A stretch of 64,000 bases of DNA from the NCBI RefSeq assembly GCF_000384475.1, contig NZ_ARWB01000001.1, positions 4,206,123 through 4,270,122 of the forward strand, given 5' to 3'. The stretch's first letter is position 1; each line of letters opens with the position of its first letter. The DNA comes from Methylopila sp. M107. Lineage in GTDB: Bacteria > Pseudomonadota > Alphaproteobacteria > Rhizobiales > Methylopilaceae. The position numbers and the translations under genes were made by a program. Below the pieces are notes generated by a model. The model did not search any database, was not told where the DNA came from, and saw only the letters and a list, made by a program, of their open reading frames with translations. Shown in pieces: positions 38,248 through 56,241 of this stretch.

Positions 38248-38532
38248 GCCGGCTCCATTCGAAGCGTTTCGATGAGGGCCGACGCGCCGGCGGACGGCTC
38301 GCGCGTTCGCGGCGCCGCGGATCGGTCACGTCGGGTCCGCGCGTGCGCTGCACAAGACGCCTATTCCTATCGCCGATCTAAACCGCCGCCTAGAGGCACG
38401 AGCGCGCAGGCCCGGCCGCGGCGCGCGGCGGCGAAAAGGGGCTTGAGGCCCTCTCAGGCGCGGCGCATGCCCCGACCGGCTGGCACGCCGCTTGAATGAT
38501 CACGCGACAGTGAGACGCTCGGGGATCGGTTC

Positions 38533-40092: not shown

Positions 40093-41451
40093 GTGCCGAC
40101 ACTGCTGATCCGCAACGCCGACATCCTCGTCACGATGGACGCTGCGCGGCGTGAAATTCCCGGCGGCGGCCTGTTCGCGCGCGACGGGGTGATCGAGCAG
40201 GTGGGGCCGAGCGCCGAACTGCCGAAAGACGCCGACGTCACGCTCGACATGACCGGGCGGATCGTGACGCCCGGCCTGATCAACACCCACCACCACCTCT
40301 ACCAGAACCTGACGCGCGTTGTGCCCACCGCGCAGAACGCGCTGCTGTTCGGCTGGCTCCAGACGCTCTACCCGATCTGGGGACGGATGGGTCCGGAGCA
40401 CATCCATGTCTCGACGCTGGTCGGGCTGATGGAGCTCGTCGAGACCGGCTGCACCACGAGTTCCGACCATCTCTACATGTTCCCGAACGGCGCCCGGCTC
40501 GACGACTCGATCGAGGCGGCGGTCGAGATCGGCGTCCGTTTCCACCCGACGCGCGGCTCGATGAGCATCGGCCAGTCGCAAGGCGGGCTGCCGCCCGACG
40601 CGCTCGTCGAACGCGAGGACGCGATCCTCGCCGACTGCCGCCGCGTGATCGAGGCGTTCAACGACCCGACGCCGTTCTCGATGGTGCGGGTCGGCGTCGC
40701 GCCGTGCTCGCCGTTCTCGGTCAGCCGTGGCCTGATGAAGGATTCGGCCGATCTCGCCCGCAGCTACGGCGTCGGCCTGCACACCCACCTCGCCGAGAAC
40801 GTCGAGGACGTCGCCTATTCGCTGAAGACCTTCGGGGCGCGGCCCGGCGCCTACGCCGAAGCGCTCGGCTGGTGCGGGCCGGATGTCTGGCACGCCCACT
40901 GCGTCCAGCTCGACGCCGGCGAGATCGGCCTGTTCGCGCGGACCGGCACCGGCGTCGCGCACTGCCCGTGCTCCAACATGCGGCTCGGCAGCGGCGTTGC
41001 CCCGGTGCGCGAGATGATCGACGCGGGCGTGACGGTTGGGCTTGGCGTCGACGGGTCGGCCTCGAACGATTCCGCCCACATGCTGAACGAGGCCCGCCAG
41101 GCGCTGCTGCTGCAGCGCGTCTCCAAGGGCGGGGCGGCGCTAACCGCCCGCGAGGCGCTCGAACTCGCGACGCTCGGAGGCGCAAAGACGCTCGGGCGGT
41201 CCGACATCGGCGCGCTGGAGCCTGGCAAGGCCGCGGACCTCGCGGCGTTCGACCTCGGCGACGTCGCCTTCGCGGGCGCGCAATGGGACCCGGTCGCGGC
41301 CCTGGTGTTCTGCGGTCCGGCGCGCGCCGACCGCGTCGTCGTCAACGGCCGCGTGGTGGTCGAGGGCGGCAGATGCGTCACGATCGACCGCGAAAAAGCG
41401 CTTCTTCGCCACGGCATGCTCGCGCGCCAATTGGTTAATGACGCTTTTTGA
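40093..41451 (+). CDS. 8-oxoguanine deaminase-like amidohydrolase
   Basis: This 452-residue metal-dependent amidohydrolase most resembles 8-oxoguanine deaminases, which turn 8-oxoguanine into urate and ammonia. Metal ligands are seen as His66-x-His68 (THHHLYQN), a His in LHTHLAEN, a His in WHAHCVQL and Asp in GVDGSASND. The start is GTG 40093, supported by GAGGG 8 bases upstream. Chlorohydrolase-type (AtzB/TrzN-like) or isoguanine deaminase activity are alternatives within this subgroup. The urate-type permease upstream and hydroxyisourate genes at 60 kb favour purine catabolism. Confidence 0.82.
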   Translation: MPTLLIRNADILVTMDAARREIPGGGLFARDGVIEQVGPSAELPKDADVTLDMTGRIVTPGLINTHHHLYQNLTRVVPTAQNALLFGWLQTLYPIWGRMGPEHIHVSTLVGLMELVETGCTTSSDHLYMFPNGARLDDSIEAAVEIGVRFHPTRGSMSIGQSQGGLPPDALVEREDAILADCRRVIEAFNDPTPFSMVRVGVAPCSPFSVSRGLMKDSADLARSYGVGLHTHLAENVEDVAYSLKTFGARPGAYAEALGWCGPDVWHAHCVQLDAGEIGLFARTGTGVAHCPCSNMRLGSGVAPVREMIDAGVTVGLGVDGSASNDSAHMLNEARQALLLQRVSKGGAALTAREALELATLGGAKTLGRSDIGALEPGKAADLAAFDLGDVAFAGAQWDPVAALVFCGPARADRVVVNGRVVVEGGRCVTIDREKALLRHGMLARQLVNDAF

Positions 41452-42629: not shown

Positions 42630-43116
42630 CGTTCGGGCTTCTTTTGCGGCGGCGACAATATTCGGGCGAGGCGGTGAGGAGCGACGATCCTGCCGAGCCT
42701 GCGAATGCCAGCGGCCTTACGGCTGCCCGTTCGTCATGGTCCGGCTTGACCCACGGAGGGCCGGTTCCGCCTCGGCTCGCGCAAGTCATTGCCGGAGAAC
42801 GGAAACCCCTTCACCCGACCCTGCGGGTTGACCTCTCCCCACCCGGGAGAGGTGAAGAAGCGGCGCGGCCCTTAACCTCTCCCCAGCGGGGAGAGGCCGG
42901 ATGACTGAAAGTCATCCGGGTGAGGGGCCTCGCGGGTCCAAGTTAAGGCGATCTGCGTCTGCGTAAAACGAACCGGACACTGGTGGGCTTGACCGGAGCA
43001 TCCACGCCGATGTCGAGCTCGACGTCAGACGTGGGTCCTCCGGTCAAGCCGGAGGATGACGAGGCTCACACGGAAACTCCGGCGCAAGTCGCCGCCCAAG
43101 GCCGTCAATGTGGCGG
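42630..43116. repeat. Intergenic region filled with dispersed repeats
   Basis: No gene is seen in these ~490 bases. GTCATGGTCCGGCTTGACC (42734-42752) and GTCAAGCCGGAGGATGAC (43044-43061) are relatives of the TCATCC repeat. CCTTCACCCGACCCTGCGGG to GGGTGAGGGG (42809-42934) is a copy of the CTCTCCCC repeat with nested stems such as CCTCTCCCCAGCGGGGAGAGG. Confidence 0.7.
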
Positions 43117-43806
43117 TCACACCGCGACGGCGACGGGCGCGGTGTCAGTGATAGCGGCGATCGCGGCTTTTGAGTCCGACACCCAGCCGAAAATCCCGCC
43201 TTGCGCTTTGATCATCTTCAGCCCGAATTCGTGGAATTCGGGGAAGTAGGACGCGCAGCAGTCCGCCAGCACGACGCAGCGATAGCCGCGATCATTCGCC
43301 TCGCGCACCGTGGTGTTGACGCAGACCTCCGTCGTCACGCCGCAGACCAGCAGCGTGTCGATCCCGCGGTTCCGCAGCATCAGCTCAAGGTCGGTCTGGT
43401 AGAACGCGCCCTTGCCGGGCTTGTCGATCACCGGTTCGCCGGGCAGGGGTTTCAGCGCCGCGATGATGTCGTGGCCGGCCTCGCCGCGGATCAGGATGCG
43501 GCCCATCGGGCCTTCGGCGCCGATGCGAAGCGATGGGACGCCGCGTTCGACTTTCGCCTTCGGCGCGTCCGAAAGGTCCGGCCGGTGGCCTTCGCGGGTG
43601 TGGATCGCGAGCATGCCGGCGTCGCGCACGGCCGCGAGGATCGCCTGGCAGGGGCCGACGGCCGCCTCCAGCAGCGAGATGTCGTTGCCGAGCGTCTCGC
43701 CGAAGCCGCCGGGCTCCAGGAAATCGCGCTGCATGTCGATGATGACGAGGGCGGTCCGGGCGAGATCGACCTCGATCGGCTGCGGTTCTGCGTCGATCGT
43801 CACCAT
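43117..43806 (-). CDS. Isochorismatase-like cysteine hydrolase, BiuH paralogue (candidate triuret/ureide hydrolase)
   Basis: This 229-residue cysteine hydrolase keeps the catalytic triad of the family as Asp24 (VIIDMQ), Lys129 (DKPGKGAF) and Cys162 (TTEVCVNTT). It resembles the BiuH-like protein at 49325 along its length ([25 protein letters not shown]) but lacks that protein's ~13-residue N-terminal extension. It is the last gene of the ten-gene operon, 4 bases after the AtzH-like gene. Substrates of close relatives include biuret, triuret and ureidoacrylate. A second enzyme of this type beside AtzE/G/H fits triuret hydrolysis to carboxybiuret, but this is inference. Confidence 0.8.
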   Translation of the reverse strand: MVTIDAEPQPIEVDLARTALVIIDMQRDFLEPGGFGETLGNDISLLEAAVGPCQAILAAVRDAGMLAIHTREGHRPDLSDAPKAKVERGVPSLRIGAEGPMGRILIRGEAGHDIIAALKPLPGEPVIDKPGKGAFYQTDLELMLRNRGIDTLLVCGVTTEVCVNTTVREANDRGYRCVVLADCCASYFPEFHEFGLKMIKAQGGIFGWVSDSKAAIAAITDTAPVAVAV

Positions 43807-43810
43807 CGTC

Positions 43811-44206
43811 TCATCCTTCCTCGATCACGCTGACATGCGCGGAAACGACCTTCCAGCCATCGGCGAACCTGATCCAGGTCTGGCTCTGCCGGCCGATTTT
43901 GCGGGGCGCGCTTTCGCGTCGGAACAGCGTGTTGGCGACCGCGAGGTCCCGGCCATAGGTGGTGATCTGCGTCTTCTCCAGCCGCCGCTCCAGCCCCTGC
44001 GGGGCGCGGCCGCGGCGGAAGGCGCGGATTTCGTCCATGCCGTAGAGGTTCTCGCCGACGCCGTAGCGCAGCGTGCGCGGATCGTCCTGGAACAGCGCTT
44101 CCAGCGTCGCGACGTCGTTGCCGACCAGCGCGGCCTCATACAGGGCGAACACGACCTCGACCTCGGCTTTGACTTCGGGGATGTCGATCTCGGAGGCGGC
44201 GGTCAC
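43811..44206 (-). CDS. atzH: AtzH-like protein (DUF3225, 1,3-dicarboxyurea decarboxylase family)
   Basis: This 131-residue protein has the NTF2/SnoaL-like fold of DUF3225 (FALYEAALVGNDVATLEALF, then QSQTWIRFADGWKVVSAHVS). Its GTG start overlaps the AtzE stop as GTGA (44203-44206), which fixes the start and shows coupling. In the Pseudomonas ADP cyanuric-acid pathway, AtzH decarboxylates the 1,3-dicarboxyurea made by AtzE/AtzG to allophanate. The gene order here (F-G-E-H, then a BiuH paralogue) supports the same step. Confidence 0.82.
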   Translation of the reverse strand: MTAASEIDIPEVKAEVEVVFALYEAALVGNDVATLEALFQDDPRTLRYGVGENLYGMDEIRAFRRGRAPQGLERRLEKTQITTYGRDLAVANTLFRRESAPRKIGRQSQTWIRFADGWKVVSAHVSVIEEG

Positions 44207-45555
44207 AACTTCGCCTTCCGGAAAGCCGCGACTCCGTCCGCCTCGAGCGCGCGGGCGACGCGCAGCGCGTCGGCCTCCCGCCAGGGCGCCGCGATGATCT
44301 GGACTCCGAGCGGCAGTCCTTCGTCGAGAAAGATCGGCGCGCAGACGACCGGCAGGCCGATGAACGAGATCGGCTGGGTGAAGACGCCAAGGTTCGGCCG
44401 GACCGGCAATGTCTCGCCGTCGAGCGTGAAGGTCGTCTGGCCGAGCTTCGGCGCCCGGCACGGCGTCGCGGGCGCCAGCACGATGTCGACCTCCTCGAAC
44501 ACCTTCGCGACGGCCTCCGTGAACCAGCGGCGGAAACGCTGCGCCTTCGCCACGTAAGGCGATGGCACGGTCGCCCCGGCGATCAGCCGGTCGCGCACGG
44601 CGGGGTCGAAGTCGTCCGGGCGGTCGCGCAGGCGCTCCAGATGCAACGCCGCGCCCTCGGTCGCGGTGATGACATAGGCTGCGGCGCGGGCGCGTGCGGC
44701 CTCCGGAAATTCGACGACGCTCTTAGCCCCGAGGAAGCTAGCAACACGCGCCACGGCTTCAAAACAGTCCGGCTCGCCGAACCGCGCGAAATGCCCGCCG
44801 AGCGTCGCGATCCTCAAGTCGGCGAAGCCGCTTTCGAGCGAGGCCAGCGCCGGTTCCGGAGCGCGCGTTGTGGTCGCGGCGTCCTCCGCGTCCGGTCCCT
44901 GCATCGCGTCATAGGCGAGCGCCAGCAGCTCGGTCGAGCGCGCGAGCGGGCCGAGATGGTCGAGACTCTGCACAAATGGAAAAGTCCCGGCGCGGGTCAG
45001 CCTTCCGTAAGTCGGCTTCAGACCAAAACAGCCGCAGAGCGCGGAGGGCACGCGGATCGAGCCGTTGGTGTCGGAAGCGAGCGCGACGTCGACGAAGCCG
45101 GCCGCGACCGCGGCGCCGGAACCGCCGGAGGAGCCGCCGGACATATGGGCGAGATCGTGGGGGTTGCGCGAGGGGCCGTCGTGGACGTTTTCGCCGGTGA
45201 AGTCATAGGCGTATTCGCCCATGTTGAGCCCGCCGAGCAGCACGCCGCCGGCCGCCTCCATGCGCCGGACGAGCTCGGCGTCCTTGTTCGCGGGCGCACG
45301 CTCGCGGTTGATCTTCGATCCGGCGCGGGTGGCGAAGCCGGCGATGTCGAAGAGGTTCTTCGCCGCGAAGGTGACGCCCGCGAGCGGGCCTTTCGCAGGC
45401 GAGGCGTCGAGCGCGCTGGCGGTCGCCAGGGCGCGGTCGGCGGTGACGTCGGTGAAGGCGCCGACGTCACCGTCCAGCGCAGCGATGCGCGCGAGCGCCG
45501 CCGCGACGGAGGTTTCGGCCGGGCCGGCGCCCGCGAGCTTGGCGGCGGCGCTCAT
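44203..45555 (-). CDS. atzE: AtzE-like amidase (1-carboxybiuret hydrolase subunit)
   Basis: This 450-residue amidase-signature enzyme has the Ser-Ser-Lys catalytic set: Lys66 (FAAKNLFD), the cis-Ser in MSGGSSGGS (139-146) and the nucleophile Ser166 (DTNGSIRVP). The NLFDIAG and GENVHDGPSRNPHD stretches are characteristic of AtzE rather than GatA. In characterised systems AtzE works only with the small AtzG subunit, and here both genes overlap by four bases (ATGA). Predicted reaction: 1-carboxybiuret to 1,3-dicarboxyurea plus ammonia. Cyanuric-acid hydrolase (AtzD) is not in the window, so the substrate may arise from triuret or biuret metabolism. Confidence 0.87.
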   Translation of the reverse strand: MSAAAKLAGAGPAETSVAAALARIAALDGDVGAFTDVTADRALATASALDASPAKGPLAGVTFAAKNLFDIAGFATRAGSKINRERAPANKDAELVRRMEAAGGVLLGGLNMGEYAYDFTGENVHDGPSRNPHDLAHMSGGSSGGSGAAVAAGFVDVALASDTNGSIRVPSALCGCFGLKPTYGRLTRAGTFPFVQSLDHLGPLARSTELLALAYDAMQGPDAEDAATTTRAPEPALASLESGFADLRIATLGGHFARFGEPDCFEAVARVASFLGAKSVVEFPEAARARAAAYVITATEGAALHLERLRDRPDDFDPAVRDRLIAGATVPSPYVAKAQRFRRWFTEAVAKVFEEVDIVLAPATPCRAPKLGQTTFTLDGETLPVRPNLGVFTQPISFIGLPVVCAPIFLDEGLPLGVQIIAAPWREADALRVARALEADGVAAFRKAKL

Positions 45556-45767
45556 GAGCGCGCCACCGGGGCGAAGATCGGCGCCGGCTCGACCTCGTCG
45601 TCGAGATCGAACGCGGCGACCAGACGCGCCGCCGCCATCGTCGCGGCGAGATGCGCGAGCACGGAGGCGCGGGAGGCGGGGTCGACTGTCAGGCCGATCA
45701 GCGCGGTCGCCGAATCGAGATGCGCCTCGATCGCTTCCGGCGCGAGGGGCGGCGGAACGGCGCTCAT
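45552..45767 (-). CDS. atzG: AtzG-like small subunit (GatC-related, DUF4089)
   Basis: This 71-residue protein (MSAVPPPLAPEAIEAHLDSA... ending FAPVARS) fits AtzG, the small stabilising partner of AtzE derived from a GatC-type ancestor. Its ATG overlaps the AtzF stop (ATGA, 45764-45767) and its stop overlaps the AtzE start (45552-45555), so both limits are fixed by coupling. The single helical pair and the C-terminal PxPIFAP strap are consistent with wrapping around the amidase. It is easily missed because of its size. Confidence 0.83.
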   Translation of the reverse strand: MSAVPPPLAPEAIEAHLDSATALIGLTVDPASRASVLAHLAATMAAARLVAAFDLDDEVEPAPIFAPVARS

Positions 45768-47581
45768 GCGGCTTCCCTCGACCTGGCGTAGGCGCGCCAG
45801 CCGCCGAAGCGGGTGATGTCCTCCGCGCCGACGACGCCCTCGGCCTCGACCAGGAAGCCGAGCGCGGTCGAGCCGTCGGCGAGCGTCAGCGTGCCGAAGC
45901 CGAGCGGGGCCGGAACGCCGGTGATGAAGGTGCCGACGGACGCGGCCGGCAGCGCCCAGACCTCCGTCGAAATCGCCGCGCCGTCCTTCGGGGCGACGCG
46001 CAGCAGTCCGGGCCGCGCGACCTTTCCGGGCAGGGCGTAGAGCCTGTAGATCGGCGCGGTCTTGACCGCGCGCAGGAACCGCCCGCCGAGGCGCGTGAGC
46101 TCGCCGTTGAGCGCCATGCCCGACAGATGCGCGCCCACCACCACGAGCGCGATCTCGTCCGGCGCAGGCGTCGGGGCGCGGTCGGGGGCGGCGGGGGCGG
46201 AAAGCCCGAGCGCGCCGAGCGGCGTGCCGCCGATCGCATGGATCTGCTCCCCGATCGACGCGAGGCGTCCGTCCGCGCCCGCCGGCGCGATCAGCGTGAC
46301 GCCCGCCGGCAGCCCGTCGGGCCTCGGCCGCGAGGGGACTGCGAGCGCGCAGAGGTCGAGCAGGTTCACGAAGTTCGTATAGGTGCCGAACTCGCTGTTG
46401 AGCCCGACCGGATGCTCGGTCACTTCCGCCACGGTGCGCGGGCGCGGGAAGGTCGGGACCATCATCAGGTCGATCCTGTCCCACCAGCCGATGAGCGCGC
46501 GACGCATCGCGGCGAGTTCGTAGAGTCCGCCAAAGGCGTGGCCGGCGTCGAAGCGGCGCGCGTTCTCGATGATCTTGCGCGTGACGGGATGGATCTCGTC
46601 GGGCCGCGTCTCGATGAATTTGCGGATCGCCTCGTAGCGCTCGGCGACGAACGGCCCGTTGTAGAGCAGGCTCGCCACCGCGAAGAACGGCTCGAAGTCG
46701 ATCTCGAGGATCTCGCCGCCGAGCGTCCGGATGTCGGCGAGCGCAGCCTCGTAAACGGCTTGCGCGCCAGCGTCGCCGCCAAAGCTGCGGGTCGATGGCG
46801 TCGGGACGCCGACGCGGAATGTTTCGGGTTTCGGGCCAAGCGGCGCGGTCCGGAACGTCCGCGAGAACGGGTCCGTCGGCTCTGGGCCCGCCATGACGGC
46901 GAAGGCGCGATACGCGTCGTCGACCGACAGCGCGAACACCGAGACGCAGTCGAGCGACTTGCAGGCCGGCACGACGCCCTTGGTCGGGATCGCCCCGACA
47001 GTCGGCTTCAGCCCGACGATGTTGTTGAGGCCCGCCGGCACGCGGCCGGAGCCCGCAGTGTCGGTGCCGAGCGCGAAACTGACGAGACCGCGCGCCACCG
47101 CGACGGCCGAGCCGGAACTGGAGCCGCCCGGCACGAGCGCCGGATCGAGGGCGTTCTTCGGGGGAGGGTAGGGCGAGCGGAGGCCCACCAACCCGGTCGC
47201 GAACTGGTCGAGATTGGCCTTGCCGATGACGATCGCGCCCGCCGCCTTCAGCCGCGCGACAGAGACGGCGTCTTCCGGCGGCTGGTAGACGAAGGCAGGG
47301 CAGGCCGCCGTGGTGGGCAGCCCCGCGGCGTCGATATTGTCCTTCACCGCGAAGGGCGCGCCCCAGAGCGGCCGCCCGTCCGGCGCGGGACCGAGCGCCT
47401 CGGCCGCCTTCCGGGCGGCTGCGCGGTCGGCGAGCGTAATGAAGATCCCGGGATCGCCGGCCGCCTCGATCCGCGCGAAAACCTCGTCGACGACGTCGGC
47501 CGGCGAGACGCCGCCCGCATAGGCGGCGCCCAGTGAGGCGAGGTCGAGCGACAGGTCTTCAAGCGGCCTCGGCACGATCAA
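45764..47581 (-). CDS. atzF: Allophanate hydrolase
   Basis: This 605-residue enzyme hydrolyses allophanate to ammonia and CO2. Residues 1-~440 are an amidase-signature domain with Lys80 (FAVKDNID), the cis-Ser region PGGSSSGSA (151-159) and nucleophile Ser178 (GTDTAGSGR). Residues ~475-605 are the C-terminal allophanate hydrolase domain (VVVGAHLSGMALNGELTRLGG, RYALPG-like YRLYALPGKVARPGL). The combination distinguishes AtzF/DUR1-type allophanate hydrolase from plain amidases. No urea carboxylase adjoins it, so its allophanate must come from biuret or dicarboxyurea. Its ATG overlaps the ABC ATPase stop by four bases. Confidence 0.93.
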   Translation of the reverse strand: MIVPRPLEDLSLDLASLGAAYAGGVSPADVVDEVFARIEAAGDPGIFITLADRAAARKAAEALGPAPDGRPLWGAPFAVKDNIDAAGLPTTAACPAFVYQPPEDAVSVARLKAAGAIVIGKANLDQFATGLVGLRSPYPPPKNALDPALVPGGSSSGSAVAVARGLVSFALGTDTAGSGRVPAGLNNIVGLKPTVGAIPTKGVVPACKSLDCVSVFALSVDDAYRAFAVMAGPEPTDPFSRTFRTAPLGPKPETFRVGVPTPSTRSFGGDAGAQAVYEAALADIRTLGGEILEIDFEPFFAVASLLYNGPFVAERYEAIRKFIETRPDEIHPVTRKIIENARRFDAGHAFGGLYELAAMRRALIGWWDRIDLMMVPTFPRPRTVAEVTEHPVGLNSEFGTYTNFVNLLDLCALAVPSRPRPDGLPAGVTLIAPAGADGRLASIGEQIHAIGGTPLGALGLSAPAAPDRAPTPAPDEIALVVVGAHLSGMALNGELTRLGGRFLRAVKTAPIYRLYALPGKVARPGLLRVAPKDGAAISTEVWALPAASVGTFITGVPAPLGFGTLTLADGSTALGFLVEAEGVVGAEDITRFGGWRAYARSREAA

Positions 47582-49122
47582 TGCCCCGCCATGTGTTCGC
47601 CGATCACGTGGACGTCGGCCTTGGCGATCGGCGTCTCGTAGACCAGCGCGCCGTCCGACATCACGAAGATGCGGTCGGACAGTTCCATCAGCTCGTCGAG
47701 ATCCTCCGACATCAGCAGCACGGCGGTTCCGCCGTTGCGCGCCTTCATGATGCGGGCGCGGATTTCGGCGACCGCCGCGAAGTCGAGCCCGAAGCAGGGG
47801 TTCGAGACGATCAGCAGATCGACCTCGCCGGTCAGCTCGCGCGCCAGCACCGCGCGCTGCACGTTGCCGCCGGAGAGCGACTGGATCGGCGAGGACAGCG
47901 AGGCCGTCTTCACCTTGAACTGCTCGATCAGCTTCGTCGCGTAGGAGCGGATCGTGCGGGCGCTGATCCAGGAGACCGGCTTGCCGTTCGCGCCGAGATC
48001 GAAGGTGCGGAACGAAATGTTCTCGGCCACCGTCATCTTCGGCGCGCAGGCGTTGCGTAAGGGTTCCTCCGGGATGAATCGAACGTTGAGCACGCGGGAC
48101 TGCTCGCGCGTCGAGCCGAATGGCGCGTCCTTGACCATGATCGCGCCGGCTTCCTTGGCGCGCTGGCCCGCCAGCACCTCCAGAAACTCCTTCTGGCCGT
48201 TGCCGGAAATTCCGGCGATGCCGACGATCTCGCCCGAACGGACGCCGAACCCTTCGATCGAGATCGACTTCAAGCCGGTGCGGTCCTTCGCCTTCAGGGC
48301 GTCGACCGTGAGCACAGTCCTGGCGTCAGCGGGCGTCACGGTCCGGCTGTCGAGCGCCGCGATCGGCTGGTCGCCGATCATCATCGCGGCCATCTGCTTG
48401 CGGTCGAGGTCGGCGATGCGTCCGGAGCCGATATACTTGCCCTTCCGCAGCACGGTGACGTCGTCGCAGAACGAGGTCACCTCGTGGAACTTGTGGCTGA
48501 TCATCAGCACGCTGAGCTCACCGCGCTCGGTCATGCCGCGCACGACGCCCAACATCTCCTCCGCCTCGTTCGGGGTCAGCACCGAGGTCGGCTCGTCGAG
48601 CACGATGAAGCGGCGTCCGAGATAGAGCTGCTTGACGATCTCGAGCTTCTGCTTCTCGCCCGCCGCAAGCGACGCGACCGGCCGGTCGAGCGGGATCTTG
48701 AACGGCATCGTCTCCATGAACTCGCCGAGCCGCCGGCGCTCCCAGCGCCAGTCGATCACCTTCGGTGTGTCGTCGCGGGAGATGACGAGGTTTTCGGCGC
48801 CCGTAAGCGAGGGGACCAGCGTGAAGTGCTGGTAGACCATGCCGAGGCCGAGCCGGGCTGCGTCCTTCGGGCTCGACACGGCGATCTCGCGCCCCTCCAC
48901 GACCATCTGGCCCTCGGTCGGGGTGTAGAATCCCATCATGCATTTCACGAGCGTCGACTTGCCGGCGCCGTTCTCGCCGAGCAGCGCGTGGAAGGTGCCG
49001 GCCGGGATCTTGATCGAGACGTTCTCGAGCGCCGTGAACGCCCCGAACCGCATCGTCATCCCGATCGCCTCGACGCTGAGCGCCTTGTCGAGAGCGAGCG
49101 GCTTCTGGTCGGAGATCAGCAT
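47578..49122 (-). CDS. ABC transporter ATPase, nucleoside/BMP type (two ABC domains)
   Basis: This 514-residue protein has two fused ATPase domains like those of sugar and nucleoside ABC importers. The first has Walker A GENGAGKST (~residue 53), an AAGEKQKLEI signature and VLDEPTSVLTP. The second has a degenerate P-loop (GISGNGQKE) and a good LSGGNVQRAV signature. The partner permeases (50214, 51137) and binding protein (52285) are upstream in the operon, separated from it by the BiuH-like gene and two repeats. GGAAAG precedes the start by 8 bases. Confidence 0.93.
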   Translation of the reverse strand: MLISDQKPLALDKALSVEAIGMTMRFGAFTALENVSIKIPAGTFHALLGENGAGKSTLVKCMMGFYTPTEGQMVVEGREIAVSSPKDAARLGLGMVYQHFTLVPSLTGAENLVISRDDTPKVIDWRWERRRLGEFMETMPFKIPLDRPVASLAAGEKQKLEIVKQLYLGRRFIVLDEPTSVLTPNEAEEMLGVVRGMTERGELSVLMISHKFHEVTSFCDDVTVLRKGKYIGSGRIADLDRKQMAAMMIGDQPIAALDSRTVTPADARTVLTVDALKAKDRTGLKSISIEGFGVRSGEIVGIAGISGNGQKEFLEVLAGQRAKEAGAIMVKDAPFGSTREQSRVLNVRFIPEEPLRNACAPKMTVAENISFRTFDLGANGKPVSWISARTIRSYATKLIEQFKVKTASLSSPIQSLSGGNVQRAVLARELTGEVDLLIVSNPCFGLDFAAVAEIRARIMKARNGGTAVLLMSEDLDELMELSDRIFVMSDGALVYETPIAKADVHVIGEHMAGH

Positions 49123-49166
49123 GAGGTGCTTTCCCTCGGGAAAGAGATAAAGGCGCGACGTCGCCG

Positions 49167-49298
49167 CCCCCCTCTCCCCTCGCGGGAGAGGGTAAGGGTG
49201 AGGGGGCGTCTCAGGATGTGTCTCAGCCGTCCCGCTAGCTGAGGCGCCCCCTCATCCGGCCGGTTCGCGGCCACCTTCTCCCGCGAGGGGAGAAGGGA
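49167..49298. repeat. Dispersed inverted repeat inside the operon, after biuH
   Basis: CCCCTCTCCCCTCGCGGGAG at the left pairs with CTTCTCCCGCGAGGGGAGAA at the right, with AGGGGGCG / CGCCCCCT nested inside. It lies between the BiuH-like gene and the ABC ATPase gene in the direction of transcription and could affect downstream expression or RNA stability. Confidence 0.78.
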
Positions 49299-49324
49299 AG
49301 AGGCGGCGTCGCTTCGAGCGCCCA

Positions 49325-50029
49325 TCACGGCAGCTGCGCCACGAAGGCGGCGGAGTTCGAGACCGCGCCGAACACGCCGCCCTGCATCTTGATCATCCTG
49401 AGCGCCGCCTCGTGATTGCCGGGGTCAGTCGCCGCGCAGCAGTCCTCCAGCATCACGCATTCGAAGCCGCGGTCATTGGCCTCGCGCATCGTCGTGTGCA
49501 CGCACACATCCGTGGTGACGCCGGTCAGCACGATGTTGTCGATGCGACGCTGCTTGAGGATCAGTTCGAGGTCGGTCGCGCAGAACGAGCCCTTGCCGGG
49601 CTTGTCGATGATCGGCTCGCCGGCGATCGGGTAGAGTTCCGGGATGATGTCCCAGCCGGGCTCGCCGCGCACGAGGATGCGCCCGCCAGGTCCCGCGTCG
49701 CCGATGCCGGCGCCCATCTGGCGCGAGCGCCAGCGCTTGTTGTCGGGAAGGTCGGCGAGATCCGGCCGGTGTCCCTCGCGGGTGTGGAAGATGTGGTAGC
49801 CCTTGGCGCGCATCGCGCCGAGCACTCGTCTGATCGGCTCGATCGGCGCGCGGGTCAGCGACAGATCGTAGCCCATGCTGTCGACATAGCCGCCCGGCGC
49901 GCAGAAATCGGTCTGCATGTCGATGATGATGAGCGCAGTGTTTCCCGGCCGGAGGTCGCCGTTATAGGGCCACTTGTAGGGCTCGGCGTCGATGTAGGAC
50001 TGCGGCTCGATGCGTGCGTGGGCGTTCAT
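49325..50029 (-). CDS. biuH: Biuret hydrolase-like cysteine hydrolase
   Basis: This 234-residue protein closely resembles BiuH of Rhizobium leguminosarum as I recall it, including the N-terminal [12 protein letters not shown] stretch and SMGYDLSL. The triad is Asp37 (IIIDMQTDF), Lys143 (IDKPGKGSF) and Cys176 (TTDVCVHTT), one residue off the reported BiuH numbering (36, 142, 175). It would hydrolyse biuret to allophanate and ammonia, feeding AtzF four genes away. AAGG precedes the ATG. Unusually, it sits between the permease and ATPase genes of an ABC operon and is flanked on both sides by dispersed repeats. Confidence 0.88.
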
Positions 50030-50069
50030 CCTGTGACCTTTCTGGTCGCGCAGATCCGGAGGCCGTCCG

Positions 50070-50187
50070 CCCCCTCACCCGGCCCGTTGGGCCGACCTCT
50101 CCCCGCCGGGGAGAGGTGAAGAAAGGGCGTCGCCGTCCACCTCTCCCCGGCGGGGAGAGGTCGCCGCGGAGCGGCGAGTGAGGGGGC
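50070..50187. repeat. Dispersed inverted repeat inside the operon, before biuH
   Basis: CCCCCTCACCCGGCCC at the left pairs with the GAGTGAGGGGG end at the right, and two ACCTCTCCCC-CGGGGAGAGGT stems lie inside. Together with the element at 49167 it brackets the BiuH-like gene. Confidence 0.78.
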
Positions 50188-50213
50188 TTCCGCTCTGGTC
50201 ATCTCGCTTGACC

Positions 50214-51137
50214 TCACTTCGTAATCGACAGCTCGCCGGGCGCGCCCGCGAGTTGGCGGCCGGGCGACGAGGTCGCGATCATGATGAGAAGCGTCAGGAT
50301 GTAAGGGGCGGCGTAGAAGAGGTAGTAGCCCTGCGTGACGCCGACCGACTGCAGCGCAGGTCCGAGCGCCCCGGCGCCGCCAAACAGCAGCGCCGCGGCG
50401 AAGCAGCCGAGCGGGTTCCAGCGCGCGAAGATCACCAGCGCCACCGCCATCAGGCCCTGGCCGGACGAGATCCGTTCGTTCCAGCTGCCGGGATAGTAGA
50501 GCGACAGATACGCCCCGCCGATCGCGGCGAGCGCGCCGCCGGCGGCGGTCGCGAACAGGCGGACCATGTTCGGCGACAGGCCCATGGCGCGCGCGGAATC
50601 CGCGCTGTCGCCGACGACGCGGACGATCAGCCCGACCTTGGTGTTCTTGAAGCCCCACCAGAGCAGCACCGCGAGCGCGGCGCCGAGCAGGAACAGCACG
50701 TTGACGTTGAGCGCCGCCCGCACCTGCGGGATGTCGGACCAGTCGCCGAGCGGGATCGCGGGGAGGTTCGGGGCGGAGGGCTGGATGTACGGCTTGCCGA
50801 AAAAGAAGGCGAGGCCCATGCCGAACAGCATCAAAGCGATGCCGACGGCGATGTCGTTGACGCGCGGGAACGAGCAGATCCAGCCATGCAGCAGGCCGAA
50901 GCCGGCGCCCGCGACCATGGCCGCGAGCACCCCGAGCCACGGCGAGCCGGTCTCGACCGCAATGGCGTAGGCCGCCATCGCGCCGAAGACGAGCGTGCCC
51001 TCGAGCCCGAGATTGATGCGGCCCGAACGCTCTGTGATGCTCTCGCCGAGGCTGACGAAGATGAACGGGGTGGAGACCCGGATCGCCCCCCCGATGATGG
51101 CGAGCGGCACGCCCCAGAGGCCAATGTCGTTTTCCAT
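50214..51137 (-). CDS. ABC transporter permease, nucleoside/BMP type
   Basis: This 307-residue inner-membrane permease (BPD_transp_2 family) has about nine hydrophobic helices and the typical SGRINLGLEGTLVFGAMAAY motif near residue 40. The start at 51137 (MENDIGLWGV) overlaps the preceding permease stop by one base. It forms a heterodimer with the permease encoded upstream. BMP-type transporters usually carry nucleosides; in this operon a ureide or nucleobase cargo is inferred. Confidence 0.92.
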   Translation of the reverse strand: MENDIGLWGVPLAIIGGAIRVSTPFIFVSLGESITERSGRINLGLEGTLVFGAMAAYAIAVETGSPWLGVLAAMVAGAGFGLLHGWICSFPRVNDIAVGIALMLFGMGLAFFFGKPYIQPSAPNLPAIPLGDWSDIPQVRAALNVNVLFLLGAALAVLLWWGFKNTKVGLIVRVVGDSADSARAMGLSPNMVRLFATAAGGALAAIGGAYLSLYYPGSWNERISSGQGLMAVALVIFARWNPLGCFAAALLFGGAGALGPALQSVGVTQGYYLFYAAPYILTLLIMIATSSPGRQLAGAPGELSITK

Positions 51138-52258
51138 CAGGACGCCCTCGACCAGCGGTCCGGGTTGAAGATCTTGAAGCGGCCGTAGAGCGTGTCGCTC
51201 ATCAGAACGACAATGAAGATCACGCCCTGCAGCACGAGGATCGTCGCGTCCGGCAGGCCCATGCGGCGCTGGATCAGGCCGCCCGCCGCCGCGATGCCGC
51301 CGATCAGGAAGGCGACGGGGATGCAGCCGAGCGGGTTCTGCCGGGCGAGGAACGCGACCAGGATGCCGGCATAGCCGTAGCCCGCCGCGAGCGAGGCGTT
51401 GGCCGAGCCTTGCACGGCCGCGACCTCGAACATCCCGGCGAGGCCGGCGAGCGCGCCCGCCAGCGCGCAGAAGCCGACGATCAGCGGCCCGACCGCGAGG
51501 CCCTGGATTTGCGCCGCGCGGACGTTGCCGCCCGCGACCCGGGCCGCAAAGCCCCAGCGCGTCTTGTCGATCAGGATCCATGACAGCACGCAGGCGAGCA
51601 CGCCGACCGCGAGCCCCCAATGCACGTCCATGCCGGGAATCGGGCCGACCCGGTAGGCTTCCGCCAGCGGATGCGTGGACGGCTTGTTGAGCGAGGCGGG
51701 ATCGCGCAGCGGGCCCTCTACCAGCTGGTTCATCAGCGCGATCGCGATATAGGCCATCAGCAGGCTCGAGATCGTCTCGTTGACGGCGCGGTAGTGCCGG
51801 AGCGCCCCGACCGCGCCGATCCACAGGCCCCCGGCCGCCATCGCGGCGAGGCCCATGATCAGCAGCACGATCGGGGAGGGCAGGCCCGAGGCCCAGTGGC
51901 CGAAGGCGGCGGCCGCGACGCCGCCGAGCACGATCGCGCCCTCGCCGCCGATGACGGTGAGGCCGAGCCGCGCGGGAAGCGCGACGCAGAGCGCCGCGAA
52001 CAGCAGCGGCGTCGCGCGCAGGAGCGAATTCTGGACCGAGAACCACGAGCCGAAGCCGCCGCGCCACATCAGCTCGAAGAACGTCTGCGGCGACTTGCCG
52101 AGCGCGAGCAGGAACAGGCTGAAGACGGCCATGCCGGCGATCAGCGCGCCGATCGGGATCAAGATCCCTTCGGCGCGTCGGGCGATCCACGCGACCGCGC
52201 CCGAAAGCCGGGGCGGCGTCAGCGGGACGGGGATGTCGGATGCGGTCGCTTCGGACAT
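51137..52258 (-). CDS. ABC transporter permease, nucleoside/BMP type
   Basis: This 373-residue permease pairs with the one above. It has ~10 hydrophobic segments, LPARLGLTVIGGEGAIVLGGV near residue 95 and ARQNPLGCIPVAFLIGG near the C-terminus. GGAG is 7 bases before the ATG. It follows the binding-protein gene by 26 bases. Confidence 0.92.
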   Translation of the reverse strand: MSEATASDIPVPLTPPRLSGAVAWIARRAEGILIPIGALIAGMAVFSLFLLALGKSPQTFFELMWRGGFGSWFSVQNSLLRATPLLFAALCVALPARLGLTVIGGEGAIVLGGVAAAAFGHWASGLPSPIVLLIMGLAAMAAGGLWIGAVGALRHYRAVNETISSLLMAYIAIALMNQLVEGPLRDPASLNKPSTHPLAEAYRVGPIPGMDVHWGLAVGVLACVLSWILIDKTRWGFAARVAGGNVRAAQIQGLAVGPLIVGFCALAGALAGLAGMFEVAAVQGSANASLAAGYGYAGILVAFLARQNPLGCIPVAFLIGGIAAAGGLIQRRMGLPDATILVLQGVIFIVVLMSDTLYGRFKIFNPDRWSRAS

Positions 52259-52284
52259 GGCGTCGCTCCCTCAGCCGGCGCCGG

Positions 52285-53409
52285 TCAGGACGTCGACCCC
52301 TGCACGCCCTCGACGAGGTAGTTCATGCTTTCGAGCTCGATCGCGTCCTCGAGATAGGCCTTGCCGGCGCTCGCGACCTCGGCGCCCTTGTTGTTCTTGA
52401 GCGGGCCCTTGAAGACCGAGAAGCCGCCCTTCTTGATCTCCGCCAGCGTCGCCTCGAACTGCTTGCGGCCTGCGTCGTTCACGCCGGGGCCGAGCGGGCT
52501 CATCTTGACGAAACCGTCCGCTATGCCGCCGCGCGTGAAGTTCGGCAGCGGCTCGCCGGCGAGCAGGTGCTTGACGTACATCGAGTAGACGGTCGCCCAG
52601 TTCCATTCGGCGCCGGTCAGGTACTTCTCCGGCGCGAGCGGGGCCTGGCTCGCATGGTAGCCGCAGACGAAGGCGCCACGGCCGGCGGCGGTCTGCACCA
52701 CCACCTTCGGGCCGTCGACATGGCAGGTGATGACGTCGGCGCCCTGGTCGATGAGCGCATTTGTGGCCTCCGCCTCCTTCACGGCCAGCGACCACTCGCC
52801 GGTGAAGATCACCTGGCAGGTGATGGTCGGGTCGACCGAGCGCGCGCCCAGCACGAACGCGTTGACGTTGAGCAGGACCTGCGGAATGGGCTTCGCCGCC
52901 ACGAAGCCGATCTTCTTCGACTTGGTGGCGTGGCCGGCCGCGATGCCGTTCAGGTACTGGCCGAAGTTGATGTAGCCGAAATAGGAGCCGGCGTTCGTCG
53001 GGTGCTTGGACTTGTCCCAGAGGCCGCCGCAGTGGCGGAACTGGACGTCCGGGAACTTCTTGCACATGGCGAGCATGTGCGGGTCGAAATAGCCGAACGA
53101 GGTCGGGAAGATCAGCGACGCGCCGTCGAGGTTGATCATCGACTCCATGGTCTTCTGGACGTCGACCGATTCCGGCACGTTCTCCTCTTCGACGATCGAG
53201 ACGCCGTCCATAGACTTCAGCGTCTTGGCGGCTTCCGCATGGGCCTGATTGTAGCCGAAATCGTCCTTCGGTCCGACATAGATGAAGCCAATGGTGGCGG
53301 TCGCCGCGCGCGCCTGGCGCGTCGTCAGCGGCAGGCCCGCGACGCCGATCGCGGCGCCGGCGGCGGAGGTCTTGAGCAGGGTGCGGCGGGAGATCAGCAG
53401 ATCGGTCAT
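52285..53409 (-). CDS. BMP-family periplasmic substrate-binding protein (Tat-exported)
   Basis: This 374-residue protein starts with a twin-arginine-like signal (ISRRTLLKTSAAGAAIG, cleavage near ARA-AT) and then the BMP/PnrA-like domain (IGFIYVGPKDDFGYNQAHAEA). Binding proteins of this family hold nucleosides or related rings. The ATG at 53409 is preferred over 53415 because GAGGGG then has 6-base spacing. It is the first gene of the ten-gene operon; TGCATGCA-type sites lie ~100-210 bases upstream. Confidence 0.9.
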   Translation of the reverse strand: MTDLLISRRTLLKTSAAGAAIGVAGLPLTTRQARAATATIGFIYVGPKDDFGYNQAHAEAAKTLKSMDGVSIVEEENVPESVDVQKTMESMINLDGASLIFPTSFGYFDPHMLAMCKKFPDVQFRHCGGLWDKSKHPTNAGSYFGYINFGQYLNGIAAGHATKSKKIGFVAAKPIPQVLLNVNAFVLGARSVDPTITCQVIFTGEWSLAVKEAEATNALIDQGADVITCHVDGPKVVVQTAAGRGAFVCGYHASQAPLAPEKYLTGAEWNWATVYSMYVKHLLAGEPLPNFTRGGIADGFVKMSPLGPGVNDAGRKQFEATLAEIKKGGFSVFKGPLKNNKGAEVASAGKAYLEDAIELESMNYLVEGVQGSTS

Positions 53410-53790
53410 GGTCATCCCCTCGACGCCGGACGGCGGACGTCATCCGTCCCCCGCGGCATGCGCGACGCTGTGGCCGGCTCGGCCCATCCGAAGCCGGCGA
53501 TGTTTCTGGTGGCATGCAATGTCGGGGCCGAGTCTCCGGGCCAAGAACCCCGCCCGTTCAACGCCGAGCCCGGCCCCGACGGACCAAGATTGCATGCAAT
53601 ATGCATTGTTTGCATGCATCAATGATCGCCACGGGCGCCCAAAGTTTAGCGCTGGCGAGAGACCGGGCTTAAGGCGGGTCGGTAAGGGTGAAACCCTTCG
53701 AATCCGAACGTTGGTGCGCGGTCGGGAGGCTGACGCGGTTCGCCACCCGACGCCTTGGGCCAAAAATGTGCGAGCGCGTTGGGCGCCGGA
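53410..53790. other. Promoter region of the ABC/biuret operon
   Basis: No gene is seen in these ~380 bases. The stretch 53589-53620 carries clustered palindromic sites described separately, and a related GCATGC site lies at 53511-53519. The rest is GC-rich and featureless to the eye. Confidence 0.5.
53589..53620. promoter_or_regulatory. Clustered TGCATGCA palindromes, probable GntR-type operator
   Basis: ATTGCATGCAAT (53589-53600) is a perfect 12-base palindrome. TTTGCATGCATC (53609-53620) repeats it 20 bases on, and ATGCATT lies between. The site is 180-211 bases upstream of the binding-protein start, and a TTGCATGCA copy precedes the GntR gene at 55491. Copies 20 bases apart, about two helical turns, suggest cooperative binding. 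Confidence 0.65.
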
Positions 53791-54078
53791 CTATTCGGAG
53801 CGCCAGCTCAGTCCGAGAAGTCCGTAGCGCACGACCTTCGGCTTCGCGGGCGCGGAGCCGGCCTCCGCTCCCGGCGTTCCGGCCGCGGGCGCGGCGCCGC
53901 CTTCGGCCGTCGCCTGCGTTTCAGGCGCCGGCGGCTTCGGCGTCTGGTCGAGCGGCACGCCCTGGGCCGACGCGGCAGCGGCGGAACGGCCGGTGATCGT
54001 GTATCTGGTGATCGGATCGGCGAAGGCGCCGCTGGTCGCGATCACCAGAGCGCCGGCGCTTAACAGAACGAGTTTCAT
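53791..54078 (-). CDS. Small secreted protein of unknown function
   Basis: This 95-residue protein has a clear signal peptide (MKLVLLSAGALVIATSGAFA-DP). The mature part is a Pro/Ala-rich linker followed by a conserved-looking VVRYGLLGLSWRSE end. I do not recognise it. The ATG at 54078 has AGGGG 9 bases upstream and is preferred over 54087. It is on the same strand as the ABC operon but ends upstream of that operon's presumed promoter. Confidence 0.6.
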   Translation of the reverse strand: MKLVLLSAGALVIATSGAFADPITRYTITGRSAAAASAQGVPLDQTPKPPAPETQATAEGGAAPAAGTPGAEAGSAPAKPKVVRYGLLGLSWRSE

Positions 54079-54180
54079 GACGGACATCCCCTAATCGCCG
54101 GCGCCGCCGACATCGCACTTTCACAAGACTGACCGCGCCCTCGCGGAGCCGCAAGGACGCAAACGCCGCGCCCCGCCTTA

Positions 54181-54329
54181 ACCTCTCCCCGCCGGGGAGA
54201 GGTCGGCGCGAAAGCGCCGGGTGAGGGGGCATCGCGCTTTCCGAATGGCCCTGATCCCCCTCACCCGCTCGGCTTCGCCTCGCGACCCCGGATCAAGTCC
54301 GGGGCAGGCTCTCTCCCGCCGGGAGAGGT
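54181..54329. repeat. Composite dispersed repeat (both repeat types nested)
   Basis: ACCTCTCCCCGCCGGGGAGAG at the left pairs with CTCTCCCGCCGGGAGAGGT at the right. Inside lies CCCCGGATCAAGTCCGGGG, the core of the other repeat type. It fills most of the 303-base gap between the formamidase and small secreted protein genes; I see nothing else in that gap. Confidence 0.75.
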
Positions 54330-54381: not shown

Positions 54382-55398
54382 CTATTCCGCGGCGTTCTTG
54401 AAGCGCTCGCCAAACGCCCGCGTCGGGGCGGGGAAGCCGCAGGACGTTCCGTCCGTCACCTTGACCTCGTCCTCCCATGGCAGCCGGTAGGTCCCGGCGA
54501 CGAGGTCCTGCATGAAGGTGTAGGGGCAATCCTGAGCGCCGCCCTTCACCGCTGTGTAGGCGCGGTGGCCGAGTTGGTAGATGTTGTTCTCGACGCCCCA
54601 GCCGACGCGCGCCTCGCGCACGAGGTCGGGCCGGACCTCCGCCGTGATGATCTCGTCGGCGCGCCCCGTCGTCCCGTGCGCGATCACCGAGCCGTCGAAG
54701 TTCACGATCATGCCTTCGCCCATCGAGTCGAAGGAGCCGTCAGTGCCGCACATGCAGACATTCGCCGTCACCATCAGGTTCTGGAACGCGTTCGCCTGAT
54801 TGGTGAAGCGCCAGCTTTCCCGGATGGGCGCCGTGTAGCCGGCTGTCCGGATCATGATTTCGGCGCCCTTGTAGGCGCATTCCCGCGCCATTTCGGGGAA
54901 CATGCCGTCGTGGCAGATGATCAGCGCGATCTTTGCGCCGTTCGGGCCCTCTATGACGGGAACGCCGAAATCGCCGGGCTCCCACGGCTCGACCGGGACC
55001 CAAGGGTGCATCTTTCGGTAATTCAGCCGGATCTCGCCCTGGTCGTCGATGATCAGCCCGGCGTTGTACGGCATGCCGCCGGGGTTCAGCTCCATGATCG
55101 AGAAGCAGCCCCAGATCCGGTTGTCGACGCAGGCCTTCCTGAAAGCCGCGACCTCGGGTCCGTCGACCCGGCACATGATCTCGGGGTTGATGTCCATCGA
55201 CAGGCCGTGAAGGGCGTATTCGGGGAAAACGACGAGGTCCATCGTCCCGAGATTGCGACGCGCCTTGGCGACCATGTCGACGATCTTCTGCGTCTGCGCC
55301 TTGAGGTCGGCCGGCGTCACGACGTTCGGCAGCTGCAGCTGGACGAGGCCGATGACGACGCCGTGCTCCGACTTGTTCAGTCCTCCGAGACCGTTCAT
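54382..55398 (-). CDS. amiF: Formamidase
   Basis: This 338-residue nitrilase-fold enzyme hydrolyses formamide to formate and ammonia. Family-specific stretches include MNGLGGLNKS, HPWVPVEPWEPGD and CHDGMFPEMARECAYKGAE. The triad reads Glu60 (VVFPEYALHG), Lys129 (NYRKMHP) and Cys162 (IICHDG). The start at 55398 has AGGAGG 8 bases upstream. It is transcribed divergently from the GntR gene, with TGCATGCA sites between them. It adds another simple amide to the ammonia-releasing activities of the island. Confidence 0.93.
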   Translation of the reverse strand: MNGLGGLNKSEHGVVIGLVQLQLPNVVTPADLKAQTQKIVDMVAKARRNLGTMDLVVFPEYALHGLSMDINPEIMCRVDGPEVAAFRKACVDNRIWGCFSIMELNPGGMPYNAGLIIDDQGEIRLNYRKMHPWVPVEPWEPGDFGVPVIEGPNGAKIALIICHDGMFPEMARECAYKGAEIMIRTAGYTAPIRESWRFTNQANAFQNLMVTANVCMCGTDGSFDSMGEGMIVNFDGSVIAHGTTGRADEIITAEVRPDLVREARVGWGVENNIYQLGHRAYTAVKGGAQDCPYTFMQDLVAGTYRLPWEDEVKVTDGTSCGFPAPTRAFGERFKNAAE

Positions 55399-55490: not shown

Positions 55491-55516
55491 TTGCATGCAG
55501 AATGTGAATCTTGCAT
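55491..55516. promoter_or_regulatory. TTGCATGCA site between amiF and the GntR gene
   Basis: CTTGCATGCAG (core 55491-55499) is followed 20 bases on by TTGCATT (55511-55517). Sequence and spacing match the cluster upstream of the ABC/biuret operon. The position between divergent promoters fits autoregulation plus control of formamidase. Confidence 0.6.
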
Positions 55517-55566: not shown

Positions 55567-56241
55567 ATGCTCGACACCGAAACCCGAACGCGAACCGACC
55601 AGCTCGTCCGCGACCTCTCGGACGCGATCCTCGCGGGCGAGTTCAGCGCCGGCGACCGGCTCGACGAGCATTCGCTCGCGGACCGGTTTGGCGTGTCCCG
55701 CACGCCGGTGCGCGAAGCGCTGCGGCAGCTCGCGACGTCAGGGCTCGTCGACGTGCGGCCGCGCCGCGGGGCAGTGGTCGCGAGCCTCACCGCCGACCGG
55801 TTGGCTGAACTTTTCGGCGCTATGGCGGAGCTGGAAGCCACCTGCTCGCGCCTGTCGGCGATCAGCATGTCGCCGGTCGAGCGGCGCGGCCTGGAGGCCC
55901 ATCACGAGGCGATGGCGCCGCTGGTCGCGGCGAACGATCCGGAAGGCTTCGCGGCCGCGAACCTCACCTTCCACACCATGATCTACGCCGGCGCGCACAA
56001 TGCGCCGCTCGCCGAACTTGCGGCGGGCCTGCGCCAGCGGCTGTTGCCCTATCGGCGCGCCCAGTTCCACACGCCCGGCCGCCTGCCGCGCAGCCACGCC
56101 GAGCACGGCGCGGTGGTGGAGGCGATCGCGGCGGCGGACGCCGCGAAGGCGCACGCCGCGATGCTGCGCCATGTCAGCCTGGTCGAGGATTCGTTCGAAC
56201 GCCTCGCGGCGATGACGGCCCGGAAACGCGAAGCCGGCTGA
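55567..56241 (+). CDS. GntR-family (FCD) transcriptional regulator
   Basis: This 224-residue regulator has a winged helix-turn-helix (HSLADRFGVSRTPVREALRQL, residues ~36-56) and an FCD all-helical effector domain whose His residues (LTFHTMIYAGAHN, SHAEHGAVVEAI, LRHVSLVED) likely bind a metal and a carboxylate or ureide ligand. It is divergent from formamidase and ends 9 bases before the convergent molybdenum hydroxylase gene. Shared TGCATGCA sites suggest that it controls both amiF and the ABC/biuret operon. Confidence 0.92.
   Translation: MLDTETRTRTDQLVRDLSDAILAGEFSAGDRLDEHSLADRFGVSRTPVREALRQLATSGLVDVRPRRGAVVASLTADRLAELFGAMAELEATCSRLSAISMSPVERRGLEAHHEAMAPLVAANDPEGFAAANLTFHTMIYAGAHNAPLAELAAGLRQRLLPYRRAQFHTPGRLPRSHAEHGAVVEAIAAADAAKAHAAMLRHVSLVEDSFERLAAMTARKREAG

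Follow-up and report, generated by a model that had tools for sequence, protein, structure and literature searches.

We analyzed a 64,000 bp stretch of the Methylopila sp. M107 genome (contig NZ_ARWB01000001.1, positions 4,206,123 to 4,270,122; here referred to as the window), which carries a ten-gene operon at 43117-53415 with all genes on the minus strand. Triuret and biuret are urea-like compounds which occur in fertiliser and also arise from oxidised urate. Judged from its sequence, the gene set probably takes up both compounds and degrades them to ammonia. The start codons were partly chosen by us. In order of coordinates the open reading frames (ORFs) are:

43117-43806, minus strand: TrtA-type cysteine hydrolase, probable triuret hydrolase (PDB match, discriminating residues, sister clade)
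43811-44206, minus strand: AtzH/HpxZ family protein, GTG start (HpxZ model, Pfam AtzH-like)
44203-45555, minus strand: AtzE family amidase (AtzE model, match to PDB 6c62)
45552-45767, minus strand: AtzG-like small subunit (PF13318)
45764-47581, minus strand: AtzF allophanate hydrolase, TTG start (AtzF model and AH_C domain)
47578-49122, minus strand: importer ATPase (two ABC_tran domains)
49325-50029, minus strand: BiuH biuret hydrolase (BiuH model, match to PDB 6azo, BiuH residues)
50214-51137, minus strand: importer permease 2 (PF02653)
51137-52258, minus strand: importer permease 1 (PF02653)
52285-53415, minus strand: BMP/PnrA-type binding protein with TAT-like signal (PF02608)

Gene calls and curated models confirmed that the ten genes read in one direction, as stated in a preliminary description of this DNA, and the four-base start/stop overlaps reported there at the joins ATPase-AtzF, AtzF-AtzG, AtzG-AtzE and AtzE-AtzH were found as well. 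Permeases 1 and 2 overlap by one base. Palindromic repeats lie within the permease-BiuH gap (184 bp) and the BiuH-ATPase gap (202 bp), and the repeat CCTCTCCCCGNNGGGGAGAGG occurred six times in and around the operon (42832-42896, 49171-49191, 50096-50160, 54182-54202), with 0 expected in shuffles. A search of genomes recovered the identical ten genes in the same order from G111, a member of the window's genus, and from Chenggangzhangella (locus L001), as well as from G034 of the window's genus with an AtzD gene inserted. Since the order recurs in these three, the operon is not a chance arrangement. Four further genomes of the genus (G076, G142, G170, G193) had no TrtA match at 1e-40.

The preliminary description had counted two BiuH-like hydrolases. 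This holds for the 49325-50029 protein, which exceeded the NCBIfam BiuH cut-off (415.6 vs. 370) and matched BiuH of R. leguminosarum (PDB 6azo) with 432.7 bits. The 43117-43806 protein, however, stayed below this cut-off (271.4 vs. 370) and its top PDB match was TrtA (6xix, 274.5 bits), with BiuH 6xjm at 241.9. Six published positions distinguish TrtA from BiuH, TrtA carrying F35, N41, A134, E160, Y187 and I205 besides the catalytic residues D24, K129 and C162 (PMC7948467). At each of these six the 43117 protein carries the TrtA residue, and it agrees with the Herbaspirillum TrtA at 12 of 12 positions checked, including the three catalytic ones, whereas the 49325 protein carries the BiuH letters Y, Y, S, D, T and V. 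The discriminating residues thus rule out two BiuH genes in the operon. From the published residues we infer that the 43117 protein would convert triuret to 1-carboxybiuret.

We typed 129 IHL ORFs (127 loci) by these residues, accepting eight that deviate at position 134, 187 or 205, and obtained 101 of TrtA type, 25 of BiuH type and 3 of neither. In a tree of 73 rows picked from these ORFs, with a bootstrap not fully settled, two TrtA clades were found, that of the Herbaspirillum enzyme (99/94) and that of the window protein (98/95), both apart from BiuH. The latter is an uncharacterised sister clade in which the specificity residues are unchanged. In locus L027 a TrtA of the window's clade immediately follows the ATPase gene and thus occupies the usual TrtA slot. 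An assignment of the 43117 protein to RutB or to generic isochorismatases, which would have spoken against the preliminary description, was excluded by the model scores, the residues and the tree distance to the few other isochorismatases (no RutB was in the tree). An E. coli IncK2 plasmid was also seen to carry a TrtA-like gene that has every residue of the TrtA signature (L211:4986-5654), next to genes for AllG, AllH and carbamate kinase, and many E. coli plasmids with similar genes were among the matches listed.

The assignments of the Atz proteins differ in strength. AtzE exceeded its model cut-off (640.7 vs. 425.75), matched the AtzE structure 6c62 with 465 bits and retained the Lys and the Ser-Ser-Ser motif. 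AtzF scored 766.1 against an equivalog cut-off of 511.05 and comprises the amidase and the C-terminal AH_C domains. AtzG is the weakest assignment of all, with no NCBIfam match and no PDB match, but it is located upstream of AtzE and lies over its family cut-off (PF13318, 43.6 vs. 24; 31% identical to the AtzG of pADP-1 over 55 residues), as required of an AtzE-AtzG 1-carboxybiuret hydrolase. AtzH exceeded the HpxZ model cut-off (198.3 vs. 135) and is AtzH-like according to Pfam. Nine AtzH pocket residues, numbered with an offset chosen so that Tyr22 and Arg46 match, were retained in the window protein but also in Klebsiella HpxZ. The catalytic residues cannot decide the function of AtzE either, since they are common to AtzE and HpxY. 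HpxY formed a clade separate from the window AtzE (support 100, quick tree), and the window did not qualify as an hpxXYZ cluster.

The binding protein exceeded the Bmp model cut-off (118.9 vs. 24.1) and its closest solved relatives were AtzT, which binds guanine and is 37% identical, and 3s99. In AtzT, guanine is bound via Glu165 and lies between Tyr45 and Trp194 (PMC6834077). The pocket positions Tyr45, Ser97, Phe98, Glu165, Trp194, Asn218 and Asn220 read Y, S, F, Q, W, H and D in the window protein, so that four of the seven are retained, among them the aromatic pair Tyr45/Trp194, and Glu165 is replaced by Gln. In all 30 BMP proteins sharing 51% identity or more with that of the window, this position was Gln, Thr, Ser, Val, Leu or Ile; many of these proteins are from related Bradyrhizobium, two are extra copies near the operon (L001 at 15549, L068 at 6975) and two are cut (L001 at 2, L027). 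By comparison, Glu165 was retained in four of four second-importer proteins with 34-39% identity to the window BMP, one unrelated row at 26% having been set aside, and in the genome's own second BMP importer approximately 11 kb away. The changed pocket suggests a ligand other than guanine.

Within the order, 47 of 199 genomes carried AtzE over the cut-off (48 genes). The surroundings of the 47 AtzE genes besides the window's were fetched, with approximately 9 kb per side where contigs permitted, several regions ending at contig ends (e.g. L124, 5.2 kb). The tblastn thresholds were set by us and AtzG was sometimes missed. TrtA was found near 22 of the 48 AtzE genes and AtzD near 5. For the 47 other regions the numbers were 21 for TrtA, 17 for BiuH and 5 for AtzD, all five with TrtA and BiuH as well, and importer, BiuH and TrtA occurred together in 16 regions of 7 families. 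The common order was BMP, permease, permease, (formamidase), BiuH, (AtzD), ATPase, TrtA, AtzG, AtzE, AtzH. Operons of the window's genus have AtzF directly behind the ATPase and the sister-clade TrtA as their last gene.

Counted by genome, TrtA (at least 236 bits) was present in 37 of 47 genomes with AtzE compared to 14 of 152 without it (Fisher 1.2e-19, kinship ignored); the TrtA and AtzD genome tallies are hand counts with 16 loci read individually, and TrtA residues were checked in these 16 loci (L201 partial) and in the 21 loci near AtzE rather than in every genome. Any TrtA match at 1e-40, the weaker ones unchecked, gives an upper bound of 27/152 for the genomes without AtzE. The AtzE-carrying genomes belong to 15 families, 13 of which had TrtA in at least one genome. 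Across the phylum 25 of 299 genomes had AtzE over the cut-off, 11 of them outside the order. Six of the 11 were hpx clusters (4.3 kb seen) and three had TrtA nearby (G227, G215 and G422). G215 and G422 are from outside the class and also carried BiuH and the importer near TrtA.

The 14 TrtA loci from genomes without AtzE (L195-L208) comprised ten with a cupin of 117 residues, three with AtzH alone, located directly after TrtA (L198, L200, L202), and one 3-kb fragment. Neither the window nor any of the 47 AtzE regions yielded this cupin. Our guess is that it corresponds to the published TrtB, and a lone AtzH would fit a decarboxylase of N-carboxy compounds. The alternation of AtzG-E-H, cupin and AtzH alone fits one common task, the disposal of carboxybiuret.

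The region upstream of the BMP gene contained further features:

53515-53530, minus strand: degenerate sigma-54-like element upstream of the BMP gene (GG-N10-GC, 3 mismatches to the consensus)
53591-53618, no strand given: two TGCATGCA sites upstream of the BMP gene, candidate operators (conserved placement)
54382-55398, minus strand: formamidase, co-regulated, ORF reaching to 55461 (580.4 vs. cut-off 406)
55492-55499, no strand given: third TGCATGCA site, between formamidase and regulator (placement repeated in G111)
55567-56241, plus strand: GntR/FCD regulator (GntR 71.7 and FCD 90.3 bits, over the cut-offs)

All 14 operons from other families had the motif TGGCAC-N5-TTGC upstream of the BMP gene; across the fetched loci its background frequency was 0.0065 per 500 bp. 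GG-N10-GC was conserved in the window, G034 and G111. The window itself had no excess of sigma-54 sites, with 45 loose matches vs. 87.6 expected and two sites of at most one mismatch vs. 0.47 expected (8 of 100 shuffles reached two), so that it is the other operons which support the promoter claim. Sites with one mismatch were seen at 38481-38496 (plus strand) and 59804-59819 (minus strand), just upstream of the genes for a xanthine permease and a xanthine dehydrogenase FAD protein, respectively. TGCATGCA occurs only three times in the window vs. 0.61 expected, a number reached by none of 100 shuffles. G111 has it at both placements and G034 upstream of BMP, and 13 of the 14 other operons had a site of TGCATGCA, TGTATGCA or TGCATACA type upstream, a count without shuffle control. 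Taken together, transcription is probably sigma-54-dependent with GntR/FCD control through the TGCATGCA sites.

The formamidase gene lies within the operon in many relatives. Since TGCATGCA sites are common to the operon and the formamidase/regulator region, the formamidase probably belongs to the same unit. The ten genes of the preliminary description are real, but the unit would be larger, the formamidase and the GntR/FCD regulator having been missed. An ORF of 98 residues (53791-54087, minus strand) with a start resembling a signal peptide by eye lies between the formamidase and BMP genes. Twelve of the fetched loci that carry such operons also contain a 5-formyltetrahydrofolate cyclo-ligase-like gene (L200:11052-11864), which might relate to formate release by the formamidase.

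Purine genes are located on both sides of the operon:

38533-39930, 40093-41451, 56250-61007 and 61072-63730, together with L084:1828-2928: purine island around the operon, including a second BMP importer

Those in the window encode a xanthine permease, 8-oxoguanine deaminase, xanthine dehydrogenase, OHCU decarboxylase, hydroxyisourate hydrolase and parts of the second BMP importer. It had been proposed that urate genes tie the operon to urate, which peroxynitrite converts to triuret (PMC7948467). OHCU decarboxylase and hydroxyisourate hydrolase accompanied the operon in 3 of 18 regions, those of the window, G034 and G174, but not in the 15 others, some of which are cut by contig ends. Of these 15, G067 carries a deaminase (41%) next to the operon, and in G070, G106, G010 and G015 the matches to xanthine dehydrogenase or the deaminase were no better than weak (29-32%). 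A urate link is thus plausible here, whereas as a general rule it is unsupported.

From the observed gene order, gene families, residues, conserved sites and linkage we infer activities, ligand and regulation as follows. The BMP-type ABC importer with its modified AtzT-like pocket would bring in ureides, and TrtA would convert triuret to 1-carboxybiuret. By a first route, AtzE-AtzG would deaminate carboxybiuret to 1,3-dicarboxyurea, which AtzH would convert to allophanate. By a second, carboxybiuret would decarboxylate to biuret, which BiuH would rescue to allophanate; its half-life before decarboxylation to biuret is about 20 min (PMC7948467). AtzF would finally degrade allophanate to ammonia and CO2. 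Sigma-54-dependent transcription with the GntR/FCD protein acting at the TGCATGCA sites would cover the formamidase too.

Since TrtA and BiuH signatures occur in one operon, we consider it likely that the operon scavenges nitrogen from triuret and biuret, and ancestrally probably from cyanuric acid too. This is supported by the TrtA-AtzE linkage, the cupin and AtzH alternatives, the changed pocket, the promoter and operator sites and the recurrence outside the class. It also agrees with the earlier proposal of an import and mineralisation set for ureido-chain compounds, and the 43117 hydrolase is of TrtA rather than RutB type.

Several findings weigh against this reading. The window's TrtA clade has no characterised member, and a relative on an E. 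coli plasmid adjoins oxamate carbamoyltransferase genes. The checked AtzE and AtzH residues do not discriminate Atz from Hpx proteins. Eight AtzE-carrying genomes had neither TrtA (by the bit criterion) nor AtzD. Among the window TrtA relatives, of which the best 80 of 571 were kept and their 10-kb flanks fetched, AtzE was present within 10 kb in 16 and not in 64, so this clade is not tied to AtzE everywhere; a 549-residue protein was encoded in the flanks of 55 of the 80. Finally, the urate link is local, and the sigma-54-like promoter of the window is degenerate, with none at that distance in G174. The 549-residue protein (L006:10744-12393) is membrane-like by eye and had no Pfam or NCBIfam match.

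The distribution of AtzD bears on the substrate range. AtzD was located between BiuH and ATPase in G034, G058, G099, G010 and G130, that of G034 exceeding the cyanuric acid amidohydrolase cut-off (519.7 vs. 360), and a frameshifted copy was present at the same place in Chenggangzhangella (L001:3687-4717), where a sequencing error is possible. It occurred in 24 of 47 genomes with AtzE compared to 3 of 152 without it (Fisher 5.6e-15, kinship ignored). The window and its own genome gave no AtzD match, and the window did not qualify as an atzDGEHF cluster. No AtzD remnant was recognisable in the 202-bp BiuH-ATPase gap with its palindromic repeat (best E 0.18). The gene in G034, the frameshifted copy in L001 and the bare gap here indicate that AtzD was probably present in the ancestor and lost here, and that cyanuric acid probably belonged to the ancestral substrate range. 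The absence of a cyanuric acid hydrolase, as stated in the preliminary description, is correct for the window, but the operons of some relatives contain one. In L215 (G346), from the same order, AtzD adjoins AtzG-E-H and a deaminase-like gene.

These data could also be read as a cyanuric acid operon that has lost its ring-opening enzyme. Carboxybiuret would then have come mainly from AtzD, TrtA would have joined later, and the version in the window would be a leftover sustained by biuret and triuret. The five operons with AtzD, the frameshifted copy and the enrichment among AtzE genomes favour this, but in the 47 fetched regions AtzD was never found near AtzE without TrtA and BiuH, TrtA occurred without AtzD in 16 of them and the window's own genome has none, which makes it improbable. 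We consider it equally unlikely that the 43117 clade acts on another ureide (e.g. oxaluramide) and that AtzG-E-H are HpxXYZ-like oxalurate genes. The HpxZ score of AtzH, the residues shared with Klebsiella HpxZ and HpxY and the AllG, AllH and carbamate kinase genes beside the plasmid relative would be in line with it, yet the TrtA specificity residues are unchanged, AtzE lies outside the HpxY clade (100), AtzF and BiuH are in the same operon and TrtA proteins of both clades play the same part in operons that are similar in other respects. That an AtzT-type purine importer merely shares the operon with ureide hydrolases, as its closest solved relatives (AtzT, 3s99) and the retained Tyr45/Trp194 sandwich might suggest, is very improbable given the Glu165 replaced in all 30 similar proteins and retained in the second importers, the genome's own included.

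The operon can be compared with the closest known systems. Herbaspirillum sp. BH-1 and R. leguminosarum 3841 likewise have TrtA, BiuH and AtzF in one operon, to which the window adds AtzG-E-H, the sister-clade TrtA, the formamidase and GntR control (PMC7948467). Clusters of ammonia oxidisers (bmpA-nupABC, trtA, biuH, trtB, atzF) also join a BMP-type importer to triuret genes, so that the plan of BMP importer, trtA, biuH and atzF is already published; the window differs in having AtzG-E-H, and no cupin was found in it (PMC12625717). The atzDGEHF and atzRSTUVW genes of Pseudomonas sp. ADP share AtzG-E-H-F with a BMP importer nearby, whereas the window has TrtA and BiuH for AtzD, the importer in the same operon and GntR for LysR (PMC6834077). 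In the hpxXYZ oxalurate clusters of Enterobacteriaceae, HpxX, HpxY and HpxZ are homologous to AtzG, AtzE and AtzH and in the same order, but no TrtA, BiuH or AtzF was annotated beside them in the region seen and HpxY forms a clade of its own. In the open-access literature searched, outside which most subscription papers lie, we came across no paper that describes TrtA in combination with AtzG-E-H. As far as this literature goes, the TrtA-AtzE linkage, the cupin and AtzH-alone substitutes, AtzD in the G034 operon, the sigma-54 promoters and the placement of the pADP-1 AtzE are new.

The pADP-1 AtzE was sister to the TrtA-linked AtzE of G215 (SH-aLRT 99, 69% identical), with G422 next (92) and HpxY apart (100). 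In a first, narrower tree it had grouped with Klebsiella HpxY, outside the order, and wider sampling moved it beside the TrtA-linked AtzE; both trees are quick, midpoint-rooted searches without bootstrap and the wider one joined two long branches. Related operons suggest in this way an origin for part of the atrazine-plasmid genes. Tentatively, and with somewhat more doubt than confidence, a widespread natural system centred on carboxybiuret might deal with the nitrogen-rich residues of oxidised purines and of heated urea. Entry would be by TrtA, AtzD and perhaps the formamidase (from an N-formyl ureide), exit by AtzG-E-H, the cupin or AtzH alone, with lineages swapping these modules under sigma-54/GntR control, and the atzG-E-H of pADP-1 would have been recruited from a triuret/biuret operon, not made for herbicides.

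The natural role of atzG-atzE-atzH clusters was left open previously, genetic context being of little further help for AtzH (PMC6219798). Our analysis gives a well-supported variant of the triuret/biuret pathway and a strong lead on this role, since the recurrent linkage of AtzG-E-H with TrtA and the substitutes cupin and AtzH alone point to a testable natural substrate, carboxybiuret from triuret. If true, the textbook atrazine plasmid operon would gain a natural home for part of its genes, and triuret and biuret would join the nitrogen sources scavenged by bacteria under nitrogen limitation.

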